Translations under genes and position numbers: made by a program | The notes under the pieces: model-generated | The model's input: the letters and a program-made list of their open reading frames with translations, nothing else | Told to the model about the DNA's origin: nothing | Databases searched by the model: none | Shown here: positions 4,799 through 37,741 of the stretch, one piece after another | Position numbering within the stretch: the stretch's first letter is position 1 | Layout: each line of letters opens with the position of its first letter | Origin: Octadecabacter ascidiaceicola | GTDB lineage: Bacteria > Pseudomonadota > Alphaproteobacteria > Rhodobacterales > Rhodobacteraceae | NCBI RefSeq assembly: GCF_900185015.1 | Contig: NZ_FXYD01000007.1 | Span: 1 to 37,741 of the forward strand | Reading direction: 5' to 3' | Length of the DNA: 37,741 bases

Positions 4799-4820
4799 AA
4801 AGTTGACAGCTGTCAACTTT
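4799..4820. promoter_or_regulatory. parS-like palindrome 1 (RepB site) overlapping the repC stop
   Basis: This is a perfect 22-bp palindrome with core GTTGACAGCTGTCAAC. It fits the GTT-N4-GC-N4-AAC consensus described for RepB-binding centromere sites of repABC plasmids. The repC stop codon lies inside it. The 20-bp version recurs at 5128-5147. Confidence 0.8.
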
Positions 4821-5991
4821 GCGCCCCGTTCAGCAAAGCCATCACCATCGGCCCCTCAGAAAACTGCCCCTCTTGCGCCTTACGCGCAAGGCTACGCAAG
4901 TAACCACCCGGACTGTTAATCTCACTAATCCGCTGCAAAATACACGCCGTCACAACGGCCGCTCGCTCCGGCCCCATCGCTTGGCTAGCTTCATGGTATC
5001 CACTCGGTGAAATCCCCATCATACCCCGAACAAACTGCGCGGCCCTCACGAAACTATGCCAATCCCTGATCTCCCCATCAGCATACGGCAGCAAATCAGG
5101 ACAGGCCTTAACGATCAGCGCGAGCGGAAGTTGACAGCTGTCAACTTGAACCGGTTCATCACTCCCCTGCCCTTCACCTTCTTGCTTTTCTAAGCAAAGT
5201 TCAGAATCAGAAGGTTCTTTATTTGAATTCTGAAAAGGACGCTCAATATCGTCGTCACTGCCGCTCATATTATCTGTTTCAATGAATAACCAAGCTGTCA
5301 CACGAGACAGAATTTCACTCGCAACAGCGGCCATTTCCTCAAGCTCAGTCGCCACCAATTTACGGCGCATCGTCTTGTGAACTTCCATGAGGTCCGCCAG
5401 CGCACCGTCCCAGTCTCCGCTCAGCCCCTCTTCTTGCCCATAGAGAGCGAACTTCAACGCATCGCGCTTCAGCAAGGTGACATCAGTCCGCAGGGCCTTG
5501 ATACGATCAGCTGCGGCCTCAGCCTCAGCTGCATTGCTTGCGAACTCCCCTGCCCTCGTGAGCAGCGGACGCAAGTCAAACCCGAACGCCCGCATCACTT
5601 CACCAGAGCGATCCTTATGCGCGTAGCGCTTCCCGTTGGGGCTATCACGGCGCACGATGACGCCCGCCTGTACAAGCGCCGCAACATGACGGCGCAGCGT
5701 GCTCTCGGCCATCCCGTGCGCCCGTTCTGCCAAGGCGCGATTAGACGGAAACACGACCAACGACGCATTATCGCCCAGCGAATTACCCTGATGGAACGAC
5801 AGCAATGCGTTCAAAACTGTCAAATCTCGATCGCTGAGGTTGTAGGCATGACGCGCCGTGCAAAGCTGACGAAACACCTCCCATTTGTTCACATGGGGCA
5901 AAGGCGCAGCCGCCTCAGCCGCCTCCAATGCTTGAATTAAGCCAGCCGTTACCTGCCGGCTCCCGAAGGGAGTCGATGAAATGTGGTGCAT
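4813..5991 (-). CDS. repC: RepC replication initiator
   Basis: RepC is the essential initiator of repABC plasmids, and the origin usually lies within its own coding sequence. The N-terminal domain has the family signatures STPFGSRQVT, LSDRDLTVLNALLSFHQG, VVFPSNRALAERAHGMAE and LRRHVAALVQAG; the last two are the winged-helix DNA-binding part. A C-terminal domain (about residues 285-392) follows a low-complexity acidic linker. I use the ATG at 5991 (392 aa, product begins MHHISSTPFG). A GTG four codons upstream (6003) and a TTG at 6051 are also in frame. The gene is third in repA-repB-repC. The 190-bp gap after repB holds the antisense RNA that should repress it. One parS-like palindrome is inside the gene and another covers its stop codon. 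Confidence 0.93.
   Translation of the reverse strand: MHHISSTPFGSRQVTAGLIQALEAAEAAAPLPHVNKWEVFRQLCTARHAYNLSDRDLTVLNALLSFHQGNSLGDNASLVVFPSNRALAERAHGMAESTLRRHVAALVQAGVIVRRDSPNGKRYAHKDRSGEVMRAFGFDLRPLLTRAGEFASNAAEAEAAADRIKALRTDVTLLKRDALKFALYGQEEGLSGDWDGALADLMEVHKTMRRKLVATELEEMAAVASEILSRVTAWLFIETDNMSGSDDDIERPFQNSNKEPSDSELCLEKQEGEGQGSDEPVQVDSCQLPLALIVKACPDLLPYADGEIRDWHSFVRAAQFVRGMMGISPSGYHEASQAMGPERAAVVTACILQRISEINSPGGYLRSLARKAQEGQFSEGPMVMALLNGAQS
5128..5147. promoter_or_regulatory. parS-like palindrome 2 (RepB site) inside repC
   Basis: This perfect 20-bp palindrome is identical to 4800-4819 and has core GTTGACAGCTGTCAAC. It lies within the repC linker region, where it encodes VDSCQL. An exact palindrome repeated 328 bp apart, matching the known RepB half-site pattern, is unlikely to be chance. 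It is probably a partition site. Confidence 0.8.
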
Positions 5992-6036
5992 ATTGCTTTT
6001 CACGGACAAGTTTATGCATTCGCCGCCAAGGACGTT

Positions 6037-6052
6037 GTTGACAGGAGTCAAC
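6037..6052. promoter_or_regulatory. degenerate parS-like site overlapping the ctRNA promoter
   Basis: The sequence GTTGACAGGAGTCAAC keeps both half-sites of the two perfect palindromes and differs only at two central bases. Its first half contains the TTGACA -35 box of the antisense-RNA promoter (6038-6043). RepB bound here could therefore affect ctRNA transcription. That consequence is inference. Confidence 0.6.
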
Positions 6053-11439: not shown

Positions 11440-14232
11440 TTAGAAGTGTGCGGACTTAGCACCTGCTGGCTTTTCAACCGGTGGGGCGAACTTGGTCAGG
11501 TCGATGCCCTCAACCGCGTCGATGTATTCGTCCAGCGTTGGGGTGCGCCCCAAGATCGCAGAGAGCACGACGACTGGCGTTGACGCCAACAGCGACTCGC
11601 CCTTCTTTTCGCCGGAGTCTTCAACAACACGGCCTTGGAACAGGCGTGTGGAGGTCGCGAGAACCGTGTCACCCCTAGCGGCCTTTTCCTGGTTGCCCAT
11701 GCAAAGGTTACAGCCCGGACGTTCGAGGTAGAGAATGTTCTCATACTCGGTACGTGCGGTGTTTTTTGGCGCTGCATCGTCAAATTCAAAACCGGAGTAC
11801 TTTTGCAGAACTTCCCAGTCGCCTTCTTCCTTCAACTCGTCAACGATGTTGTAGGTCGGGGCGGCGAGAACCAGCGGCGCCTTGAACTCAACCTTACCGG
11901 CATCCTTTTCGAGATTACGCAGCATTTGTGCGACGATCTTCACGTCACCCTTGTGCACCATGCAAGAGCCGACAAAACCAAGGTCAACCTTCTTTTCCGC
12001 ACCGTAGTAGGAAATTGGGCGGATGGTGTCGTGGGTGTAGCGCTTGGATACATCCGCGTTCTGCACGTCAGGGTCCGCGATCATCGGTTCAACGATGGCG
12101 TCCAGATCAACGACAACTTCGGCGAAGTATTTGGCGTTGTCATCCGGCGCGAGCGCAGGCTTTTCACCGGACCTAATTTCGGCGATGCGTTTATCGGCAA
12201 TCGCGATCAGACCTTTGAGCATCTCAACGTCGTTATCCATGCCCTTTTCGATCATTATATTGATCCGCGATTTCGCAATCTCAAGCGAACCGATCAGCGT
12301 TTCATCCTCGGAGATACAGATAGAGGCCTTCGCCTTCATCTCTGCGGTCCAGTCGGTGAATGTGAAGGCTTGGTCAGCCAGCAGGGTGCCGATGTGAACC
12401 TCAATCACGCGGCCTTGGAAGACGTTGTCGCCGAACTGTTCCAGCATCTGCAGCTGCGTCGCGTGCACCACATCGCGGAAGTCCATGTGGTCGGCCATTT
12501 GGCCTTTGAACGTCACCTTCACGGATTCAGGAATCGGCATCGTCGCCTCACCCGTTGCCAGCGCAAGCGCCACCGTGCCGGAGTCAGCGCCGAACGCTAC
12601 ACCCTTAGACATACGTGTGTGGCTGTCGCCGCCGATGATGATCGCCCAGTCGTCAACCGTGATGTCGTTCAGCACCTTGTGAATAACGTCGGTCATCGCG
12701 TGGTAAACGCCCTTGGGGTCACGCGCGGTGATCAGGCCGAACTTATGCATGAACGCCATCAGCTTTGGCGTGTTTTCCTGCGCCTTGAAGTCCCACACAG
12801 ACGCCGTGTGGCAACCAGACTGGTAGGCACCATCGACGTTCGGAGACAGCACAGTCGCGGCCATCGCCTCAAGCTCTTGGCTGGTCATCAGGCCAGTTGT
12901 GTCTTGGGATCCGACAATATCAACGCCGACGCGGGTATCAGAACCGGCATACAGGGTCGCGCCTGGACGCACACCAACAGCATTCGCGTTGAAGATCTTT
13001 TCAACCGCCGTCAGGCCTTGGCCCTCGTGAACCACTTCTTTGGACGGTGCGAAAGCTGACTCAAGCTCAATCCCCAGCGCCTCACAGGCCACGCTTTGCA
13101 GTTTCTTACCGAAGACGATTGCGTAAGACCCGCCCGCCTTCATGAATTCGACCTTCTGCGGCGTGAACGAGGGGGACATGTCCACCAGCTCTTCCTCGCC
13201 GGTCTCATCAAACAGCTTTTTCTCTTTGGTGTTGATGGTCAGAACCGTGCCCGTCGCAACAGAATACTTTTCCTCAAGTACGGCGTTGCCGTCATTGTTC
13301 AGGATTGGCTTGCCGTTTTCATCGACCTTCTTAACCCAGTTTTTCAGATCGACACCGATACCACCGGTCACGCCAACAGTCGTCAGGAAGATCGGGGAAA
13401 TCCCGTTCGTACCCGCAACAACAGGGGCGAAGTTCACGAATGGCACATAGGGGCTGGCCTGCTTACCAGTCCAAAGGGCGACGTTGTTCACACCAGACAT
13501 GCGGGATGAGCCAACGCCCATCGTGCCTTTTTCAGCAATCAGCATCACGCGCTTGTCAGGGTGCTGCTTTTGCAGCTCCTTTATTTCCACCTGTGCTTCT
13601 GGGGTGATCATACATTGGCCGTGCAATTCACGGTCAGCACGCGAATGCGCTTGGTTGCCTGGCGACAGCAAGTCGGTCGAAATATCGCCTTCACCAGCGA
13701 TATACGTGACGACTTTAACTTCTTCTTCAACGTCTGGCAGCTTGGTAAAAAACTCAGCCTTGGCGTAGCTTTCAAGAATGTCGCGCGCGACAGCGTTGCC
13801 CGCATCTAGAGCAGCTTTTAGACGATCGGTGTCAGCGTCATACAAGAACACTTGGGTCTTCAACACGTCAGCCGCTTGGCCAGCAATCGCTGCTTCATCA
13901 CCGAGCGCAAGGTCGAGCAAGACATCAACAGACGGGCCGCCCTTCATGTGCGACAGCATCTCAAACGCGAACTCGGTTGAGATTTCCGGCACATCAGCAG
14001 TACCCAAAATGATCTCTTTCAAGAACTGCGCCTTAACGCCAGCCGCGCTGGTTGTGCCCGGAAGCGTGTTATAAATCAGGAAGTTAAGGGACTGCTCACG
14101 GTGCTCGTGACCCTTGTCCTTAATCTGCGCAATGATTTCCTGCGTCAGCTCGGCACCATCAATCGGCTTCGGGCTCAGGTCCTGCTTTTTACGTGTTTCA
14201 ATTTCTTCTAGGTAGGCTGCATAAAGGCTCAT
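11440..14232 (-). CDS. acnB: aconitate hydratase B (2-methylisocitrate dehydratase)
   Basis: AcnB interconverts citrate and isocitrate in the TCA cycle and can hydrate 2-methylaconitate. The 930-aa product aligns along the whole AcnB family (E. coli AcnB is 865 aa). It has the N-terminal HEAT-like domain beginning MSLYAAYLEEIETRKKQ, the swivel domain and the catalytic [4Fe-4S] domains. Cluster cysteines are visible in SGCHTASVWD (about residue 472) and in PGCNLCMGNQ (about 836). Other conserved blocks include IIGGDSHTRMSKGVAFGADS and VDLGFVGSCM. It ends at a strong terminator, so it is probably monocistronic. A complete core-metabolism gene is unexpected on an exopolysaccharide plasmid. The large open frames on the opposite strand are shadows. 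Confidence 0.97.
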   Translation of the reverse strand: MSLYAAYLEEIETRKKQDLSPKPIDGAELTQEIIAQIKDKGHEHREQSLNFLIYNTLPGTTSAAGVKAQFLKEIILGTADVPEISTEFAFEMLSHMKGGPSVDVLLDLALGDEAAIAGQAADVLKTQVFLYDADTDRLKAALDAGNAVARDILESYAKAEFFTKLPDVEEEVKVVTYIAGEGDISTDLLSPGNQAHSRADRELHGQCMITPEAQVEIKELQKQHPDKRVMLIAEKGTMGVGSSRMSGVNNVALWTGKQASPYVPFVNFAPVVAGTNGISPIFLTTVGVTGGIGVDLKNWVKKVDENGKPILNNDGNAVLEEKYSVATGTVLTINTKEKKLFDETGEEELVDMSPSFTPQKVEFMKAGGSYAIVFGKKLQSVACEALGIELESAFAPSKEVVHEGQGLTAVEKIFNANAVGVRPGATLYAGSDTRVGVDIVGSQDTTGLMTSQELEAMAATVLSPNVDGAYQSGCHTASVWDFKAQENTPKLMAFMHKFGLITARDPKGVYHAMTDVIHKVLNDITVDDWAIIIGGDSHTRMSKGVAFGADSGTVALALATGEATMPIPESVKVTFKGQMADHMDFRDVVHATQLQMLEQFGDNVFQGRVIEVHIGTLLADQAFTFTDWTAEMKAKASICISEDETLIGSLEIAKSRINIMIEKGMDNDVEMLKGLIAIADKRIAEIRSGEKPALAPDDNAKYFAEVVVDLDAIVEPMIADPDVQNADVSKRYTHDTIRPISYYGAEKKVDLGFVGSCMVHKGDVKIVAQMLRNLEKDAGKVEFKAPLVLAAPTYNIVDELKEEGDWEVLQKYSGFEFDDAAPKNTARTEYENILYLERPGCNLCMGNQEKAARGDTVLATSTRLFQGRVVEDSGEKKGESLLASTPVVVLSAILGRTPTLDEYIDAVEGIDLTKFAPPVEKPAGAKSAHF

Positions 14233-16200: not shown

Positions 16201-16363
16201 GAAGACAACACATCCAGTTATCATCGGATCTATATGCATAAAGCCAGCCACGTCGCTGTTGCGATTGATACGCAAGGCACCCGTTTGGCTGCACGTTCTA
16301 TTCCGGCAAATCCGAAGGGATATTTGGAGCTGGAACGTTGGGCGCGATCTTTCGGTAACGTTC
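16201..16363 (+). pseudogene. IS110 transposase N-terminal fragment
   Basis: After the start ATG (MKTTHPVIIG) a one-base frameshift leads to HKASHVAVAIDTQGTRLAAR, followed by SIPANPKGYLELERWARSFG. This is the DEDD RuvC-like N-terminus of IS110-family transposases. It is cut at 16363 by the IS5-family element. Confidence 0.75.
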
Positions 16364-17413
16364 GGCTTTGTTGCACAAATCGGTTGTAGGGATTCACTGT
16401 ATGAATCCAGCGTGATAGCTGAATGCATGAGCAGTTGGGCCCCTACGAAGTACAAGACCAAGAATTGGTCGTCTTACAATGACAGCTTGAAGCAACGTGG
16501 ATCGTTGTCGATCTGGTTTGATCCTGAGATGGATTGGGCTCCGCCACCAAGCGGCAAACGCGGTCGGCAACAGAAATTCAGTGATGCCGCCATCCAGACA
16601 TGCCTGACACTGAAGGTCCTGTTTGGCATGCCTCTCCGTCAAACAACTGGGTTCGTACAGAGCTTGCTGCGTTTGGTCGGGTTGGATTGGGCAGCACCTG
16701 ATTTTAGCACCTTATGCAGACGCCAGAAGACTCTGAACGTAAGCCTGCCTTTTCGTGGGTCCAAAGGTCCACTGAACCTGCTCATCGACAGCACGGGGAT
16801 CAAAGCCGAAGGTGAAGGCGAGTGGAATGCGCGCAAGCATGGTGGTTTAAAACGCCGCATCTGGCGTAAGATACACATAGGTATCGACGAAGAAACGCTG
16901 GAGGTTCGTGCAGTCGAAGTCACCAGCAGCAGCATCGGCGATGCTCCCATGCTGCCCGAGTTGCTGAGCCAAATCGCTCCCGATCAGGACATCGGCAGTG
17001 TCACCGCAGATGGGGCGTATGACACCCGTAAATGCCATGAGGCGATTGCAGCACGAGATGCCCATGCGGTGATCCCACCGCGCAAGAATGCCAAGCCCTG
17101 GAAGCCGACGAGCGATGGAGCAATTGCTCGCAATGATGCGGTCAATGCACAACGATATCTGGGTCGCACCCTTTGGCGACGCTGGAGCGGATATCACCGC
17201 CGAAGCCGCGTCGAGACAAAGATGCACTGTATGAAATTACTTGGCCAATCATTGATGGCGCGGGACTTCGAAAGGCAGGTCGCTGAAATCCAAATACGCA
17301 TCGCCGTCCTCAACCGCTACACCGCTCTTGGCATACCTGTCACAGAGGCAGTAGGCTAAGGCTGTCTGGGGCAAGGGGAAAAACGCCCTTCACCCGATTT
17401 ATGCAACAAAGCC
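16364..17413 (+). mobile_element. IS5-family (IS903-like) insertion sequence, 1050 bp
   Basis: The ends are GGCTTTGTTGCACAAAT (left, from 16364) and its near-complement ATTTATGCAACAAAGCC (right, to 17413). This terminal sequence and the length of about 1.05 kb are typical of the IS903 group. The transposase is intact. The 9-bp flanks do not match (GTAACGTTC versus GCGACGATC), which fits a deletion of the IS110 middle next to this element. Confidence 0.9.
16427..17359 (+). CDS. IS5-family DDE transposase
   Basis: The 310-aa product starts at ATG 16427 (MSSWAPTKYKTKNW) inside the element. It is a full-length IS903-type transposase: an N-terminal DUF4372-like region (LTLKVLFGMPLRQTTGFVQS), then a DDE domain with DSTGIK (first Asp), TADGAYDTRKCH (second Asp) and YHRRSRVETKMHCMKLLG (Glu). 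The frame is open further upstream into the IS110 remnant, but that part is not transposase. It is the only apparently undamaged transposase gene in the nest. Confidence 0.92.
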   Translation: MSSWAPTKYKTKNWSSYNDSLKQRGSLSIWFDPEMDWAPPPSGKRGRQQKFSDAAIQTCLTLKVLFGMPLRQTTGFVQSLLRLVGLDWAAPDFSTLCRRQKTLNVSLPFRGSKGPLNLLIDSTGIKAEGEGEWNARKHGGLKRRIWRKIHIGIDEETLEVRAVEVTSSSIGDAPMLPELLSQIAPDQDIGSVTADGAYDTRKCHEAIAARDAHAVIPPRKNAKPWKPTSDGAIARNDAVNAQRYLGRTLWRRWSGYHRRSRVETKMHCMKLLGQSLMARDFERQVAEIQIRIAVLNRYTALGIPVTEAVG

Positions 17414-17724
17414 GCGACGATCCAACGCGCATCCGTTCAGAAGCAGCATTTGCAAAGCTTTGTGGTGTTTGCTCAATCCTTTCATCCAGCGGCAAAACAC
17501 ACCGCTTCCGATTGAATAGCGGCGGTAACAGGCAGGCCAGCGCCGCCCTTGATCGCGTGGCCATTATCAGGATGCGAAGCAACGAGCCGACTCGTGCTTA
17601 TGTCAAGAAACGTACAAAAGGCGGAAAGAACAAAAGCGAAATCATTCGTTGTTTGAAACGCTACATCGTTCGCGAAATCTACAGACAGCTTTGCGTGCCA
17701 AAAATAACACAAATTGCTGCTTGA
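17414..17724 (+). pseudogene. IS110 transposase C-terminal fragment
   Basis: The open frame carries RIRSEAAFAKLCGVCSILSS, then GKTHRFRLNSGGNRQASAAL and EIIRCLKRYIVREIYRQL. This is the Transposase_20 (IS116/IS110/IS902) C-terminal domain with its conserved serine region. It belongs with 16201-16363; about 200 intervening residues are absent. Confidence 0.8.
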
Positions 17725-22791: not shown

Positions 22792-22805
22792 TGGGTGCGC
22801 GCTAC

Positions 22806-23728
22806 TGAGCTACTCCCCCAATCTTTGGACGAAATCTAGCGTGAGTTAAGCTACTTTTTGCACCTGTTGATCGGGGTTGGTGCTTCAATTCTCTGCCAAT
22901 AGGCCAGGCAGGTGGTCGCCCGCCAAAGGCAGAATGCGGACGTTTGTGATTTTGGAACTCCATCTATTTACTGACGCCCGCTTTGGCCTCTTAGCCGCTT
23001 TCCCAGGCATACAGCTAGACGCACTCGTATTTCAGGGATCGCCACAGCCGTTCGACGAAGATGTTGCCGAGGAAGCGGCCTTTGCCATCCATTGATATTC
23101 GAGCATTTGACTGACGCAGCTGATCCGTCCAGGCAAATGACATGAACTGGCTGCCCTGATCCGTGTTCATAATCTCAGGTGGGCGGAACTTGTGGATCGC
23201 CTCGTTCAAAGTATCGACGCAGAACTCGGCCTCCAATGTGTTTGAGATGCACCAAGCCAGAACCTTGCGCGTGTGCCAGTCCATGATGGCAACCAGATAC
23301 TGAAAGCCACGCCGCATTGGCAGATAGGTGATGTCGGCGCAACAGACCTGATTGGGTCGACCGACCTGCAGCTCTCGCAACAGGTCGGGGTAAATCTTGT
23401 GCCCCTTGGCCGCCTTACTGGTGTTGGGTTTCTGATAGATCGGCATAAGGCCCATCAACCGCATCAGCCGTCTGATCCGCTTTTCGTTCACCAGATGCGT
23501 CTTCCAACAAGGCCCGTTTCCACTGATGGATCATAGTCGGATGGACACCGAACCGACTGGCCAATTCGCTGACGGTCTCTTCGCCCTTCAGCGCCTCTAA
23601 CGCGACCTTAGCTTTAAACTCCGGGTGATGTTGCTTCCGTTTCGGCATTCCTGATCTCCTTCGTGGTGAAAATCAGCAGACTATAAATTGCAGCTTACGT
23701 CAGTGTCCGAATTTCGGGGGGTAGCTCA
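22806..23728 (-). mobile_element. decayed IS3-family element, internally deleted
   Basis: Terminal inverted repeats TGAGCTACTCCCCC (left) and the complement of GGGGGGTAGCTCA (right) define 923 bp, about 300 bp shorter than expected. It is a diverged relative, roughly 80% by eye over the compared stretch, of the fragment at 29507-30328. The left flank shares GTAGCGCGCACC, on the complementary strand, with the flank of that copy. Confidence 0.75.
22846..23648 (-). pseudogene. IS3-family OrfA-OrfB remnant
   Basis: OrfA begins MPKRKQHHPEFKAKVALEAL and runs to about WKRALLEDAS. A deletion then joins it out of frame to OrfB at NEKRIRRLMRLMGLMPIYQK. The OrfB core is present (CCADITYLPMRRGFQYLVAI, NTDQGSQF, VERLWRSLKYEC), but a stop follows at the YECV-Tyr position. 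The C-terminus (RPHSAFGGRPP) survives in another frame. Confidence 0.85.
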
Positions 23729-23809
23729 AGGACCACCTCTCACAGAGGTGGTCGCGGAAATTTGGACCAACCGTTAAGATGGATCGCATGACGAAAGAAG
23801 TGATCCACA

Positions 23810-24118
23810 ATGAAGAAACGAAAGAACCATTCACCTGAGTTCAAGGCCAAGGTTGCGCTTGAAGCGATCCGCGAGGAGATGACGCTAGCGGAACTATCGA
23901 AGAAGTACGGCGTCCATCCAACCCAGATCGGGACTTGGAAGCGCGCTGCGATAGAGAACATGGCGACCGCATTTACCCGCAAAGGTTCAGCTCCAGAGCA
24001 GGTCAGCAGCGCGGACATCGACAAGCTGCATTCCAAGATCGGCCAGTTGGTGGTTGAGCGGGATTTTTTGGCGGACGCCTCGCATCAACTGCTCGGGACG
24101 CGAGGCAAAAAATGGTGA
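23810..24118 (+). CDS. IS3-family OrfA
   Basis: The 102-aa product has the HTH_Tnp_1 domain (SPEFKAKVALEAIREEMTLA, ELSKKYGVHPTQIGTWKRAA) and a short leucine-zipper-like tail (IDKLHSKIGQLVVERDFLAD). It ends in an A6 run (24107-24112) overlapping orfB in the -1 frame. That is a typical programmed-frameshift site for making the OrfAB transposase. Confidence 0.9.
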   Translation: MKKRKNHSPEFKAKVALEAIREEMTLAELSKKYGVHPTQIGTWKRAAIENMATAFTRKGSAPEQVSSADIDKLHSKIGQLVVERDFLADASHQLLGTRGKKW

Positions 24119-24981
24119 GCCGGGATCATAAGTTAAGCATTCGTAAACAGTGCGAACTGCTGCAGTTGTCGCGGTCGCGACTTTACTATCAACCTGTCGG
24201 TGAAAGCGCCGAGAACCTGAAGTTCATGGAACTCATCGATAAGCAATTCCTGGAAACACCTTGGTACGGTTCCCGCCAGATGGCGCGTTACATGAAGCGC
24301 AACAATCACCAATGTGGTCGCCATCGGGTCCGGCGTTTGATGCGGCTCATGCGTCTGGTTCCAATTTATCAGGAACCCAACACAAGTAAGAAGCACCCAC
24401 AGCATAAAATCTGGCCTTACCTGCTGAGGAACGCAGTCATCGACCGTCCAAATCAGGCCTGGTGCGCAGATATCACCTATATCCCTATGCGACGTGGCTT
24501 TTTATATCTTGTGGCGATTATGGACTGGTACAGTCGCAAGGTGCTGTCTTGGCGGCTGTCAAACAGCATGGACGCGGACTTCTGCGTGGAGGCTTTGAAA
24601 GAAGCTTTGGCCAAGCACGGTAAGCCGGAAATCTTCAACACAGATCAGGGGAGCCAATTTACGAGTGGTGCGTGGATCGACGTACTGACGGATGAAAATA
24701 TCAAAATCAGCATGGACGGCAAAGGTGCGTGGCCCCCTCTCATCGTTTGCTGCGCAAACGACTGCCGGGCAACGGACAATCGGATGATTGAGCGGCTGTG
24801 GCGGTCACTGAAATACGAATGCGTCTACCTCAACGCTTTTGAGACCGGTTCAGAGATGAGGGCGGGCATCGATAAATGGCTGACGTACTACAACTCTGAG
24901 CGACCCCATTCGACGCACGGCATATTTACCCCCGATGAGGCTTTTGAAAGCAAACCTGAACAAATGAAATTAGCAGCCTGA
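24112..24981 (+). CDS. IS3-family OrfB with an in-frame 13-residue insertion
   Basis: The 289-aa product has the HTH_21 domain (ETPWYGSRQMARYMKRNNHQ) and an rve integrase core: WCADITYIPMRRGFLYLVAI (first Asp), NTDQGSQFTSG (second Asp) and MIERLWRSLKYE (Glu). In relatives, DGKGAW is followed directly by about R-DN before the catalytic Glu (35 residues between the second Asp and Glu). Here a 42-base segment (24733-24774) adds PPLIVCCANDCRAT and stretches the spacing to 48. The gene has no other visible lesion. Whether the enzyme still works is unknown. Confidence 0.88.
   Translation: MVSRDHKLSIRKQCELLQLSRSRLYYQPVGESAENLKFMELIDKQFLETPWYGSRQMARYMKRNNHQCGRHRVRRLMRLMRLVPIYQEPNTSKKHPQHKIWPYLLRNAVIDRPNQAWCADITYIPMRRGFLYLVAIMDWYSRKVLSWRLSNSMDADFCVEALKEALAKHGKPEIFNTDQGSQFTSGAWIDVLTDENIKISMDGKGAWPPLIVCCANDCRATDNRMIERLWRSLKYECVYLNAFETGSEMRAGIDKWLTYYNSERPHSTHGIFTPDEAFESKPEQMKLAA
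24733..24774 (-). repeat. hairpin mini-insertion E1 (family A) in IS3 orfB
   Basis: Read on the minus strand it has a left flank TGCCCGGCAG, a hairpin TCGTTTGC-GCA-GCAAACGA and a right flank TGAGAGGGGG. The copy at 28311-28351 has the same flanks but a different, still perfect hairpin. Net insertion is +39 bp, so the host frame is kept. Confidence 0.82.
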
Positions 24982-25042
24982 AATGACACCCTGATCCATC
25001 TTAACAAGGCTGCAAACTGGTCTAAAATCTAGGACCACCTCT

Positions 25043-27266: not shown

Positions 27267-28217
27267 ATGTTTAGAAACTGCATAACTTTGGTCTGCAATA
27301 TAGGTTATATTGATAAAGCAGCGTTTGTTGCACATCAGCTCTTAGCGCAAACTGATCGCAATTTTGATGTGGTCATCTGCACAGACGACATATCTACAGA
27401 TCAGTCTAGGAACGTTCCCAAAGATGCAATTTTACGCCAAATTGATATTGAGGAAACAATCGTAAACCTGCCGCAGAATGAGCGGCTCAAACACTACACG
27501 TATTGGCGGTTGCCAGCGATCCAATCATTAAGCGACGATTATGACAGGATCCTCTACTTAGATACGGATATTTTTGTTGTTGGCGATGGGATATCAGCGC
27601 TATTTGACATTGATATGCAAGGGCTTGGTATCGCCGCTGTTCGCGATATTCATCAACGACATAGGCCAAATCGCAAAGTGCAGGAATTTGCCACACTTGG
27701 TATGTTGAATGCGCCCTATTTCAACGCTGGGGTTCTCTTGATTGATGCCGCGATGTGGCGAAAAACATCAGCCTTCGACTACATCTTGAAGCTTGCAAAA
27801 CAATCACCTGACGCATTGCTGTGCCATGATCAAAGTTTACTTAATATTCACTTTTACCAAAACTGGCTTGAGCTCTCGCCGCTCTGGAATTGGCAAAATT
27901 CAAGTCGTGTGAACCTAATCGGGGAATTTTTGTCACCCTATTTCGTTCACTTTGTCGGTGCGACAAAGCCTTGGAATAGTCCCGATGGATCACTTCCACT
28001 AAAATACCACTCAGATTTTGCACGATATTTTGATCAAAGCCCCCCACCAACGCAGAGACCAAAACTGCATGCAAAATTCCTTTTGAAAAATTTTTGGTAT
28101 TTCAGAAGAACCCAAAAATACCTTGCGCGGTTTTCAGATCCACTCAGCACCGTCAAACATGTTAAGGGAAATATTAGCCCTATGATGGGTGAAAATAGAG
28201 AGGTGAATAGCCCCTAG
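27267..28217 (+). CDS. GT8-family glycosyltransferase, 3' end supplied by an IS
   Basis: The motifs of family GT8 are in order: RILYLDTDIFVVGDG (DxD, about residue 97), APYFNAGVLLIDAAMW, LLCHDQSLLNIHF and FVHFVGATKPWNSP. The ATG at 27267 is preferred over a TTG at 27255. The last codons (VNSP-stop) lie inside the left inverted repeat of the IS3-family element beginning at 28204. The natural C-terminus is therefore lost, although all catalytic motifs remain. It should use an activated sugar for the polysaccharide repeat unit. Confidence 0.8.
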   Translation: MFRNCITLVCNIGYIDKAAFVAHQLLAQTDRNFDVVICTDDISTDQSRNVPKDAILRQIDIEETIVNLPQNERLKHYTYWRLPAIQSLSDDYDRILYLDTDIFVVGDGISALFDIDMQGLGIAAVRDIHQRHRPNRKVQEFATLGMLNAPYFNAGVLLIDAAMWRKTSAFDYILKLAKQSPDALLCHDQSLLNIHFYQNWLELSPLWNWQNSSRVNLIGEFLSPYFVHFVGATKPWNSPDGSLPLKYHSDFARYFDQSPPPTQRPKLHAKFLLKNFWYFRRTQKYLARFSDPLSTVKHVKGNISPMMGENREVNSP

Positions 28218-28262
28218 TATTGTAGACGCTTTCTTCCGTAATTTTGAGGCAAGGAGGCCGTT

Positions 28263-28576
28263 ATGGGGAAGCCATATTTCAGTGAAGATTTCAAGCGTGA
28301 TGCTGTGCATCCACTGCCCGGCAGTCGAAACGAAGTTTCGATGAGAGGGGGATCACGGTACGTGGATATCCAGTTCGTGAGGTTTCGGAGCGATTAGGTG
28401 TCAGCACCTATTCACTCTACAAATGGATGAAGCTTTACGCGAAGGCTGCGTCACAAGCGCCATCTGTGGATCATGAAGCCGAGAACCGCAGGCTCAAGCG
28501 TGAGCTGACACGGATGACGGAGGAGCGCGACATCCTAAAAAAAGCGGCCGCGTACTTCGCAAAGGATGCAAGGTGA
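28263..28576 (+). pseudogene. IS3-family OrfA broken by mini-insertion E2
   Basis: MGKPYFSEDFKRDAVH is followed by 41 foreign bases (28311-28351) and then by ITVRGYPVREVSERLGVSTY. The rest continues without a stop to ERDILKKAAAYFAKDAR in the shifted frame. An A7-G slippery site (28547-28554) for -1 frameshifting is retained. Apart from the insertion the gene looks undamaged. Confidence 0.88.
28311..28351 (+). repeat. hairpin mini-insertion E2 (family A) in IS3 orfA
   Basis: Left flank TGCCCGGCAG, hairpin TCGAAAC-GAA-GTTTCGA (28325-28341), right flank TGAGAGGGGG. The flanks are identical to those of E1 (24733-24774, opposite strand). The hairpin arms differ but remain perfectly complementary. 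Net insertion is about +38 bp, which shifts the frame. Confidence 0.85.
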
Positions 28577-29488
28577 AGTACGCGTTTGTCGCCGAGCACC
28601 GCCCACAGTTTTCAGTGCGTCGGATGTGCCGTTGCCTCAATATCCATCCTAGCGGGTTCTATGCATGGATTAAGAATCCATTAAGCCACCATGCGCGCGA
28701 GGATGCGCGTCAGACGAAGCTGCTCAAAGACGCATGGAAAGACAGTGGCAAAGTCTATGGGTATCGCAAACTGCATGACGATCTCATTGAACAGGGCGAG
28801 ACCAGTTGTCCAAATCGTGTTGCGAGGCTGGCTCGCTTGGCTGGGATCCGCGCTGAGATCGGCTACAAACGTAAACCTGGGAAGTATGGCGGCAGACCAT
28901 CTGTCGTGGTCGATAATACGCTGGATCGGCAGTTTGATGTTGCTGAACCAGATACCGCATGGGGTCGTTTATTGTGGCGCCATTGGTTCGAGCCCAATGG
29001 ACGACGACATCACATACATCAAAACCTACGAAGGCTTCCTGTATCTGGCTGTCGTTATCGACCTCTATTCGCGTCGTGTGATTGGCTGGGCCACGCAATC
29101 ACGGCAACCAACTGACCTTGTCTTACAAGCACTATTGATGGCCGTCTGGCGGCGCAAACCTAAGCAAACGGTCCTGATCCACACCGATCAGGGCTCACAA
29201 TATACCAGTCGGGATTGGGCCGCATTTCTGCGGGCTCACAACATCGAACACTCAATGAGCAGGCGTGGGAATTGTCATGACAACGCGGTCGCTGAAAGCT
29301 TCTTCAACCTGCTCAAACGTGAACGCGTCCGTCGTCGGACATACAAAACCCGCGAGCAGGCCAGACAGGACGTCTTCGATTACATCGAAATGTTCTATAA
29401 CCCAAAACGCAAACATGCGAGAAACGGGATGCTGTCGCCTGTCGACTTCGAAAACAGACAGCGCAATGTGAACCAAGAAGGTGTCTAG
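28573..29488 (+). pseudogene. IS3-family OrfB broken by mini-insertion E3
   Basis: The gene starts at a GTG overlapping the orfA stop (KYAFVAEHRPQFSVRRMCRC). It has an HTH_21 domain (VYGYRKLHDDLIEQGETSCP) and reads to EPDTAW. There 43 bases (28963-29005) replace the two expected residues and shift the frame. Beyond, the rve core is intact: DITYIKTYEGFLYLAVVIDL, HTDQGSQYTS, GNCHDNAVAESFFNLLKRE, then a normal C-terminus. No other lesion is visible. Confidence 0.9.
28963..29005 (+). repeat. hairpin mini-insertion E3 (family B) in IS3 orfB
   Basis: A perfect hairpin CCATTGG-TTCGAGC-CCAATGG (28980-29000) lies towards the right side, and outer GTCGT/ACGAC bases can also pair. It aligns gaplessly with the complement of 15740-15782 over all 43 positions. 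Conservation is concentrated in the hairpin half. Net +37 bp in both hosts. Confidence 0.75.
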
Positions 29489-29506
29489 GAAACTAGGGGC
29501 TATTCA

Positions 29507-30289: not shown

Positions 30290-30328
30290 GTCACGCCAGA
30301 TCCTGTCCAACAAATGGGGAGTAGCTCA
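29507..30328 (+). mobile_element. IS3-family fragment, left part missing
   Basis: Only the orfB-containing right part survives, ending with GGGGAGTAGCTCA (the same terminal sequence as the element at 22806-23728). Its left edge is exactly the right end of the IS3 element at 28204-29506, which must have inserted in it. Confidence 0.8.
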
Positions 30329-30430
30329 GTAGCGCGCACCGTTGGTAGGGCTGTCCAGTCTCGCCAAACTTCGGAACTGGCGGTGCAGGCCCTGCTCATA
30401 GCAATCGTTGCCGCTTCGCCACGTCCGACA
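30329..30430 (+). pseudogene. fragment of another IS3-family OrfB
   Basis: About 100 bases translate as VGRAVQSRQTSELAVQALLI. This corresponds to the IGWATQSRQPTDLVLQALLM block of the OrfB at 28573-29488, so a third IS3-type element once lay here and was itself the insertion target of the 29507-30328 copy. Confidence 0.6.
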
Positions 30431-37614: not shown

Positions 37615-37741
37615 AGAAGCCTAAAAACAGCCGCGCTTTCCGGGCGAGACATGCACTTCGTTGCCCGATCCAAGATTTCTTACGTGCAACGGCGCTTGCC
37701 ATCGTAATTACTCAACCCTACGAATAACTCTTCGAATACTC
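37615..37741. repeat. terminal direct repeat, copy 2 (circle overlap)
   Basis: Identical to 1-127. See the first copy. It contains the 3' end of wzc a second time, so annotating wzc from here would be an artefact. Confidence 0.93.

Follow-up and report, generated by a model that had tools for sequence, protein, structure and literature searches.

Insertion sequences of the IS200/IS605 group (Y1 HUH transposition) carry a hairpin, insert 3′ of a short motif and leave no target duplication, and REP sequences are probable single-strand substrates. As described in the literature, REP sequences fall into GTAG and CGTC superfamilies associated with RAYT/Y1, form single hairpins of 20–40 bp in high copy number and lie mostly outside genes (PMC3733652). 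RUP is 107 bp long, with terminal inverted repeats, TA targets and 108 intergenic reports; it is also reported to interrupt the transposases of over six IS families, where a role in limiting the transposase was raised, and the same source places the Rickettsia palindromic elements (RPE) inside bacterial protein genes (PMC2229807). The yeast mitochondrial GC42 units are described as mobile palindromes of about 40 nt whose stems are constrained and which turn over at homologous positions, and the abundant yeast GC clusters are mitochondrial and flanked by AG or ACT direct repeats (PMC4478555).

The element described here is a unit of 39–44 nt with the layout CRY-TGCCCGGCAG-(stem mostly of 7–8 bp, loop of 2–4 nt)-TGAGAGGGGG. 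Two copies, E1 and E2, lie in a DNA stretch of 37,741 nt from Octadecabacter ascidiaceicola (contig NZ_FXYD01000007.1), analysed as a whole and called the window below. RUP, the Correia elements and other bacterial MITEs are likewise small, non-autonomous and structured. The element differs from RUP in its length of about 40 nt, its freely varying stem, the absence of target duplication and the small number of copies outside repeated genes; unlike a RUP-like MITE it has no terminal inverted repeats beyond CC/GG, its ends being CRYTGCC and GAGGGGG. With REP it shares the short single hairpin and the high copy number. It lacks the REP tags GTAG and CGTC: GCAG stands before and TGAG after the stem in the 81 hairpins aligned, in which the boxes are fixed by the search pattern, and the box variants of relaxed scans carried neither tag as far as seen. 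Whereas REP sequences are mostly extragenic, the element is intragenic, in insertion sequences (ISs); its stem sequence is not family-specific, unlike that of REP, and among 12 loci read no Y1 gene was flanked by it on both sides. GC42 resembles it in size, palindromic build, constrained stems and turnover at homologous positions, but the element is bacterial, makes no duplication of the kind that flanks the GC clusters and has its niche in IS genes. RPE are also palindromes within bacterial genes, but they measure 105–146 bp and are fused in frame in their host genes, while the element, at about 40 nt, is blind to the frame and occurs mostly in transposases. A hairpin, the absence of target duplication and insertion 3′ of YC (most of 113 copies) are shared with IS200/IS605, from which it departs by having no transposase, a single main hairpin, a loss of 1–3 target bases and ends unlike those of an IS200 from genome G014 (locus L169).

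RUP is the nearest known system in habit, REP in size and shape and GC42 in life style. Since the REP features tested (tag, intergenic location) and the MITE features tested (terminal repeats, target duplication) are absent, we regard the unit as a new variety among the small palindromic elements that move, one whose niche, the IS genes, is unusual. In the open-access literature, judged mostly by title and start of abstract, no paper was recognised as describing it, and the main text of the 2013 Octadecabacter genome paper has no occurrence of 'repeat', 'palindrom' or 'hairpin' (PMC3646047). The reading that we favour, and hold to be reasonably probable, is that of a non-autonomous mobile DNA element of very small size (39–44 nt), mainly of Rhodobacterales, with ISs as its habitat and a folded single strand as the form in which it moves. 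It would offer a clean natural example of mobile DNA recognised by structure more than by sequence, with 81 distinct stems among 113 copies, and also of mobile elements exploiting other mobile elements.

The two window copies and the distribution of the element

The sequences of E1 and E2 are exactly as the preliminary description gave them. The pattern TGCCCGGCAG-N10-30-TGAGAGGGGG has two matches in the window, at 28315–28351 on the forward strand and 24733–24771 on the reverse strand, and none in 100 dinucleotide-preserving shuffles of it. E2 is a forward-strand unit of 40 nt (CAC...GGGGG, 28312–28351), its limits suggested by comparison with the element-free homologues L031 and L032. After the CAC comes the left box TGCCCGGCAG (28315–28324), itself a short quasi-palindrome that contributes four pairs to the minimum-energy DNA fold, then the variable hairpin TCGAAAC-GAA-GTTTCGA (28325–28341), perfectly paired over 7 bp with the loop GAA, and the right box TGAGAGGGGG (28342–28351). 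E1 is a reverse-strand unit of 42 nt (CGT...GGGGG, 24733–24774), its limits suggested by the element-free homologues L155 and L156; CGT and the left box are followed by the hairpin TCGTTTGC-GCA-GCAAACGA (24743–24761), perfectly paired over 8 bp with the loop GCA, and by the right box. Two differing yet perfectly paired hairpins had been claimed from the start, and both the pattern matches and the DNA folds bear this out. As single-stranded DNA, E1 and E2 fold somewhat better than their shuffles on both strands (z −1.96 to −2.91).

The host genes are of the IS3 type, as had been proposed together with the identical flanks. The flank of E1 matches the Pfam families rve and HTH_21, and that of E2 HTH_21 and HTH_Tnp_1. 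E1 lies antisense in a forward-strand IS3-family transposase frame of 289 aa (24112–24981), which it leaves open by a net insertion of 39 nt relative to the homologues; the IS itself extends approximately from 23744 to 25042 on the forward strand, its ends having been placed by eye by likeness to an IS3 with nine elements in the congener genome G005. The IS3-family element carrying E2 (28204–29506, forward strand) is bounded by terminal inverted repeats of 32 nt with 84% identity. Its first open reading frame (start 28263) is 38 nt longer, net, through E2 and is thereby shifted, the frame having been judged by eye. Close relatives of the gene around E2 are found without the element on Sulfitobacter pontiacus plasmids, and relatives of the gene around E1 without it in Phaeobacter inhibens and Roseovarius; a relative from Sulfitobacter faviae holds a decayed copy at the same spot as E1. 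These element-free homologues disfavour the sequence as a native part of the IS genes in all their copies, a case that had been named beforehand as one that would speak against a separate element.

Beyond the window, exact matches were found in 15 of 293 genomes. All 15 belong to the window's family, to which 179 of the scanned genomes were assigned, and the 114 genomes that represent other families of the class gave no match; the reversed pattern, used as a control, matched in none of the 293. The many dispersed copies with varied but paired stems that had been named beforehand as support thus exist, and the opposing case, in which these two would be the only copies anywhere, is contradicted by G005 alone, with 76 exact copies. 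A covariance model built from the 81 distinct hairpins was applied to five genomes, with at most 150 candidates scored in each, and returned at least 150 copies in G005, 117 in G014, 67 in G025, 18 in G073 and two in the window genome. In the latter (G000, 3.23 Mb) neither the exact pattern nor the model (E 0.1, 150 candidates scored) gave any copy other than E1 and E2. A scan of named genomes yielded at least 118 matching stretches, of which the 80 listed are, by their titles, mostly from Rhodobacterales with some from Hyphomicrobiales, so host counts are lower bounds. Of 126 unique pooled matches, 116 have a paired insert. The ten without one include matches from Streptomyces, Zoogloea, Brevibacillus and an actinomycete bin, which look like chance, and the inserts of L041 and L056, which look like real hairpins with a bulge. 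A 42-base copy matched 13 of 72,556 plasmid records in PLSDB, all from alphaproteobacterial genera. The same copy had no match at E 0.05 among 20,395 records of E. coli and 50,697 of phages; in IMG/VR four contigs matched.

Stem covariation and the strand that may be read

After removal of duplicates, 113 copies carried the 81 distinct hairpins. All seven pairs tested across these change on both sides, and standard pairs occupy 96.5% of the cells, against 57.2% after shuffling and 26–50% with slid partners. Those distinct hairpins that have at least six pairs show stems mostly of 7 or 8 bp and loops of 2 to 4 bases. The perfect conservation of the boxes in this alignment is a product of the exact search pattern, and relaxed scans reveal variants such as CGAGAGG and TGACCGGCAG. 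The relaxed scan gave 283 instances, 178 of them without a box mismatch, and among them the share of non-Watson–Crick stem positions rises with the number of box mismatches, from 3.4% at none to 7.0, 8.4 and 11.6% at one, two and three; at four it is 5.7%, in five copies only. Because pairing falls as the boxes decay, it looks like the mark of copies that are mobile or were so until recently, and not like a permanent trait of each site. The proposal that the structure is what selection acts on is supported, then, for moving copies but not for each copy in situ, where pairing is lost with the boxes and where one apparent exchange of hairpins points to recombination (see below).

The matching of the arms might have a purely mutational origin, template switching having copied one arm onto the other so that a palindrome is corrected with no need for the structure. 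The small number of G.T intermediates (19 among the 1,246 pairs of copies with intact boxes) would suit this account, as would a variant near position 11521 of the G005 locus L202 (11475–11535), in which the left flank is the complement of the right (CCCTCTCA-hairpin-TGAGAGGG), the expected and likely the actual product of a template switch. But the boxes stay fixed while the stems differ completely, as the 178 mismatch-free instances show, and the loss of pairing in copies with decayed boxes means that correction of arms in place is not strong, which leaves this a rather improbable explanation of the covariation.

A transcript was considered as well. The preliminary description had allowed for a structured RNA, and a regulatory or processed RNA within the transposase mRNA would account for a covarying hairpin. 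On the strand that reads TGCCC, G.T mismatches outnumber A.C mismatches 27 to 11 when one copy per site is counted (p 0.014) and 27 to 15 when only hairpins with a single mismatch are used (p 0.088, a weak excess); this weakly suggests that the fold of the TGCCC strand is what is read, and G.U pairs in an RNA would fit the excess too. Against an RNA, 181 site clusters include 51 in sense and 60 in antisense to the gene, with 59 ambiguous and 11 without a call. At the gathering score, a search of the window and L205 against Rfam matched only a tRNA, in L205, and the homologues that lack the element are annotated as complete IS3 transposases. The RNA proposal is not supported by these results, and we consider it very improbable. 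Since orientation is unbiased, the element probably acts as DNA. The other proposal made at the outset, a palindromic mobile element or structured DNA substrate, is the one that agrees with the 181 site clusters, the empty sites, the covarying stems and the even orientation. Under the favoured reading, the mobile form would be a folded single strand, and an enzyme would recognise the hairpin by its shape and the two boxes by their sequence; recognition by shape would mean that any self-complementary stem of 7–8 bp suffices.

Insertion into transposase genes and carriage by insertion sequences

Some homologues have the element and others lack it, as expected of an insertion. Among the fetched loci, 55 copies with an intact right box have an element-free homologue of at least 78% identity, and 43 of these could be aligned and 12 could not. 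Unlike the sites of a MITE, none of the 43 alignable empty sites showed a target duplication: target bases had been lost in 40 (two in 23, one in nine, three in eight), one site showed neither loss nor overlap, and two had a one-base overlap. The lost bases are often NG, as judged by eye. Immediately ahead of the inserted CRY, 88% of 113 copies have C, and one position further out 88% have T or C, so that insertion occurs mostly after YC. A derivation as the remnant or the end of a larger element is disfavoured by the 1.67 Mb of fetched loci, since solitary boxes look degenerate or fortuitous by eye: in these loci, 12 solo left boxes were counted beside 207 full units and six solo right boxes beside 275, and no autonomous parent with the same ends was seen in that DNA.

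The genes entered are mostly transposase genes. When the open stretches beside 113 sites (111 on one strand, 112 on the other) were compared with Pfam, almost only transposase-type families were listed, in tallies made per family and not per site and comprising, in one of the two comparisons, 25 of the 27 families; IS3, IS5/IS4, IS66, IS110, IS256, IS6, IS21, IS30 and IS630 types were represented. The exceptions among the families listed, with one member each, were a phage integrase, a DEAD helicase, a phage portal protein, an acetamidase and a biotin ligase. In the last case the copy, L009 1501–1537, belongs to the few seen outside ISs and lies, by eye, just upstream of the biotin-protein-ligase gene. 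Flanks with protein-level homologues in at least three other loci belong to 246 of 264 unique sites. On genome contigs, 94 of 100 elements stand in a repeated-gene context, compared with 15 of the 112 positions on those contigs that served as controls, and over all loci, the G005 regions among which were fetched around model matches, the figures are 221 of 232 against 38 of 204. A random sample of 20 of the 181 clusters gave a transposase-type Pfam family in 14 at E 0.01 (10 of them above the Pfam cut-off), no match in six and another family in none; for each cluster the stretch scanned had been chosen for having the best homologues in the set of loci, a choice that leans towards repeated genes. 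At the 18 sites of least repeated context, ten stretches were examined, of which five are of transposase type, four have no match and one is a phage portal. Of the 13 PLSDB records, four have the element inside an annotated transposase (IS256, IS66 and twice IS5), eight have no listed feature at the element and one has no annotation.

Such a pattern could arise from survival and hitch-hiking alone, if insertion took place anywhere without bias, copies in host genes were purged and those in ISs were amplified. That ISs multiply their elements, and that recombination between IS copies moves them, as described below, is in keeping with this, and the six sampled clusters without a Pfam match could hide some intergenic sites. 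Intergenic insertions should on this account be tolerated, yet none of the 20 sampled clusters hit a non-transposase family, and homologues in other loci are lacking at only three of the 232 element sites, compared with 126 of the 204 control positions. The 181 clusters, moreover, are many separate sites and not one amplified copy, even if some may share a single insertion in ISs that have since diverged. We regard survival and hitch-hiking as the sole cause as possible but doubtful. Because so few sites lie outside the repeated-gene context, a real insertion bias towards ISs is likely, and part of the preference could be due to amplification and survivorship. A stronger version, which we put forward tentatively and think less likely than not, has the elements as ultra-small hyperparasites that insert specifically into the transposase genes of unrelated IS families and are recognised by hairpin shape, either as selfish DNA or as a dedicated system of transposon silencing. 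Were insertion itself directed at transposase genes, one could test by what means an element of 40 bases locates them in many unrelated families. Under the favoured reading ISs would form a niche, since insertion there would cost the host little, the IS would copy and transfer the element, and recombination between IS copies would shift it from one to another.

One example of carriage is the G005 IS3 that holds nine elements in both orientations, partly degenerate, when compared with the empty IS of P. inhibens; the first of its sites is the very site of E1 in the window. Four copies of this IS lie in the fetched regions, the other three being 98.3–99.75% identical with IS-exact ends. At one site, two copies share one hairpin and two another. 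The alignment has 1,623 columns, none of those that separate the two pairs lies beyond column 859, and of 27 separating columns in the span compared, 23 agree with L213, which has the second hairpin, two agree with the other pair and two are gaps. Since the exchanged hairpin shares its stretch with L213, the swap is best read, from these alignments, as recombination between IS copies, not as compensatory mutation in place. The G005 loci L202, L205, L207, L212 and L213 are mosaic IS3 copies, and the first half of L202 and L207 looks derived from a copy like L213, hairpin included. Elsewhere in G005, a 1.1-kb IS5 carries the element in 22 of 22 copies, as found with an exact junction pattern that would also match an empty site, and in G073 an IS with two elements carries them in four of four copies.

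Copies this numerous raise the question of whether the interrupted transposases still work, the element being skipped by ribosome bypass or excision. A comparable case would be the byps of yeast mitochondria, which are bypassed in translation. The 22 IS5 copies retain an insert that puts an in-frame UGA near the gene start, the pieces of the nine-element IS3 have no other stops (by eye), and the two-element IS of G073 has multiplied to four copies, all of which would suit such skipping. But the two orientations are about equally frequent, no frame is kept (with two bases lost, 38 of 113 copies and 27 of 111 oriented clusters are in frame), and defective ISs can be mobilised in trans. The four nine-element copies differ by about six nonsynonymous to four synonymous substitutions (by eye), and for flanks of copies sharing a site the 72 comparisons gave a dN/dS of about 0.84, the 37 between copies with identical hairpins 1.25 and the 35 between copies with different ones 0.59, rough values obtained with automatic frames in which 181 stop codons were met. 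The ratios do no more than lean away from bypass, to which we give little credence, and towards genes that are dead and depend on mobilisation in trans.

Still less probable is a host or plasmid system that inserts the hairpins on purpose to disable transposases as a form of genome defence. It would explain why transposase genes are so strongly preferred across many unrelated families, and several sites of the nine-element IS3 lie, by eye, in conserved motifs; but element-bearing ISs continue to multiply, nothing is gained by inserting again into a gene already broken, and the target requirement is seemingly a short motif only. Whatever the cause, the element may account for part of the transposase pseudogenes in IS-laden polar Roseobacters.

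Candidate mobilising enzymes and other features of the window

On the favoured reading the mobilising protein would be supplied in trans, and a tyrosine HUH enzyme (Y1/RAYT-like) would be the first candidate. A loss of 1–3 target bases is not known to be typical of HUH transposition, which speaks against this candidate. No mobilising gene was identified among the Y1, IS91-type and reverse-transcriptase candidates examined. Y1_Tnp was present in five of 22 genomes searched, all five with at least two exact copies of the element; six of the searched genomes have that many, and the one exception is the window genome, with its two copies and no Y1_Tnp. This co-occurrence could be explained by a high IS load. 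Twelve Y1 loci were read together with their surroundings, about 1.5 kb to the left and right: one has an element in a neighbouring IS5, one has a degenerate copy nearby and the other ten have no full copy; none is flanked by the element on both sides. Y1/IS200 as a parent was rejected on one sequence, the G014 IS200 L169, whose ends differ. The leader hairpin of this IS200 (L169, L159) contains the 8-mer TGAGAGGG, the core of the right box, which may be chance. IS91 (Y2_Tnp) occurs in G005, G014 and G025 and is absent from G000, G002 and G073, and one G014 copy of IS91 is itself split where the covariance model places an element. Reverse transcriptases (PF00078) were set aside: they occur in five of 13 genomes, and in the four loci read the encoded proteins differ in length and no left box is present. 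As far as looked, neither IS91-type enzymes nor reverse transcriptases have a convincing link with the element.

The window itself begins and ends with an exact terminal repeat of 127 bases (1–127 and 37615–37741), and the contig is probably a closed circle or plasmid of about 37.6 kb. Its reading frames, read by eye, presumably include rep/par-type genes and a polysaccharide cluster, and a reverse-strand frame of 930 aa at 11440–14232 looks, by eye, like an aconitate hydratase B. A perfect 20-bp palindrome, AAGTTGACAGCTGTCAACTT, occurs twice, at 4800–4819 and 5128–5147, at and within the reverse-strand frame 4813–6051; this frame is perhaps a replication gene, and operator or origin sites are a possible role for the palindromes. 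Two IS3 copies are bounded, in inverted orientation, by a perfect 25-bp inverted repeat, GGGGAGTAGCTCAGTAGCGCGCACC (22794–22818 and 30316–30340), which by eye resembles the 5′ part of a tRNA gene. At 16363–17414 the window also holds an IS5-family IS without the element, related by eye to the IS5 that bears it in 22 copies in G005.
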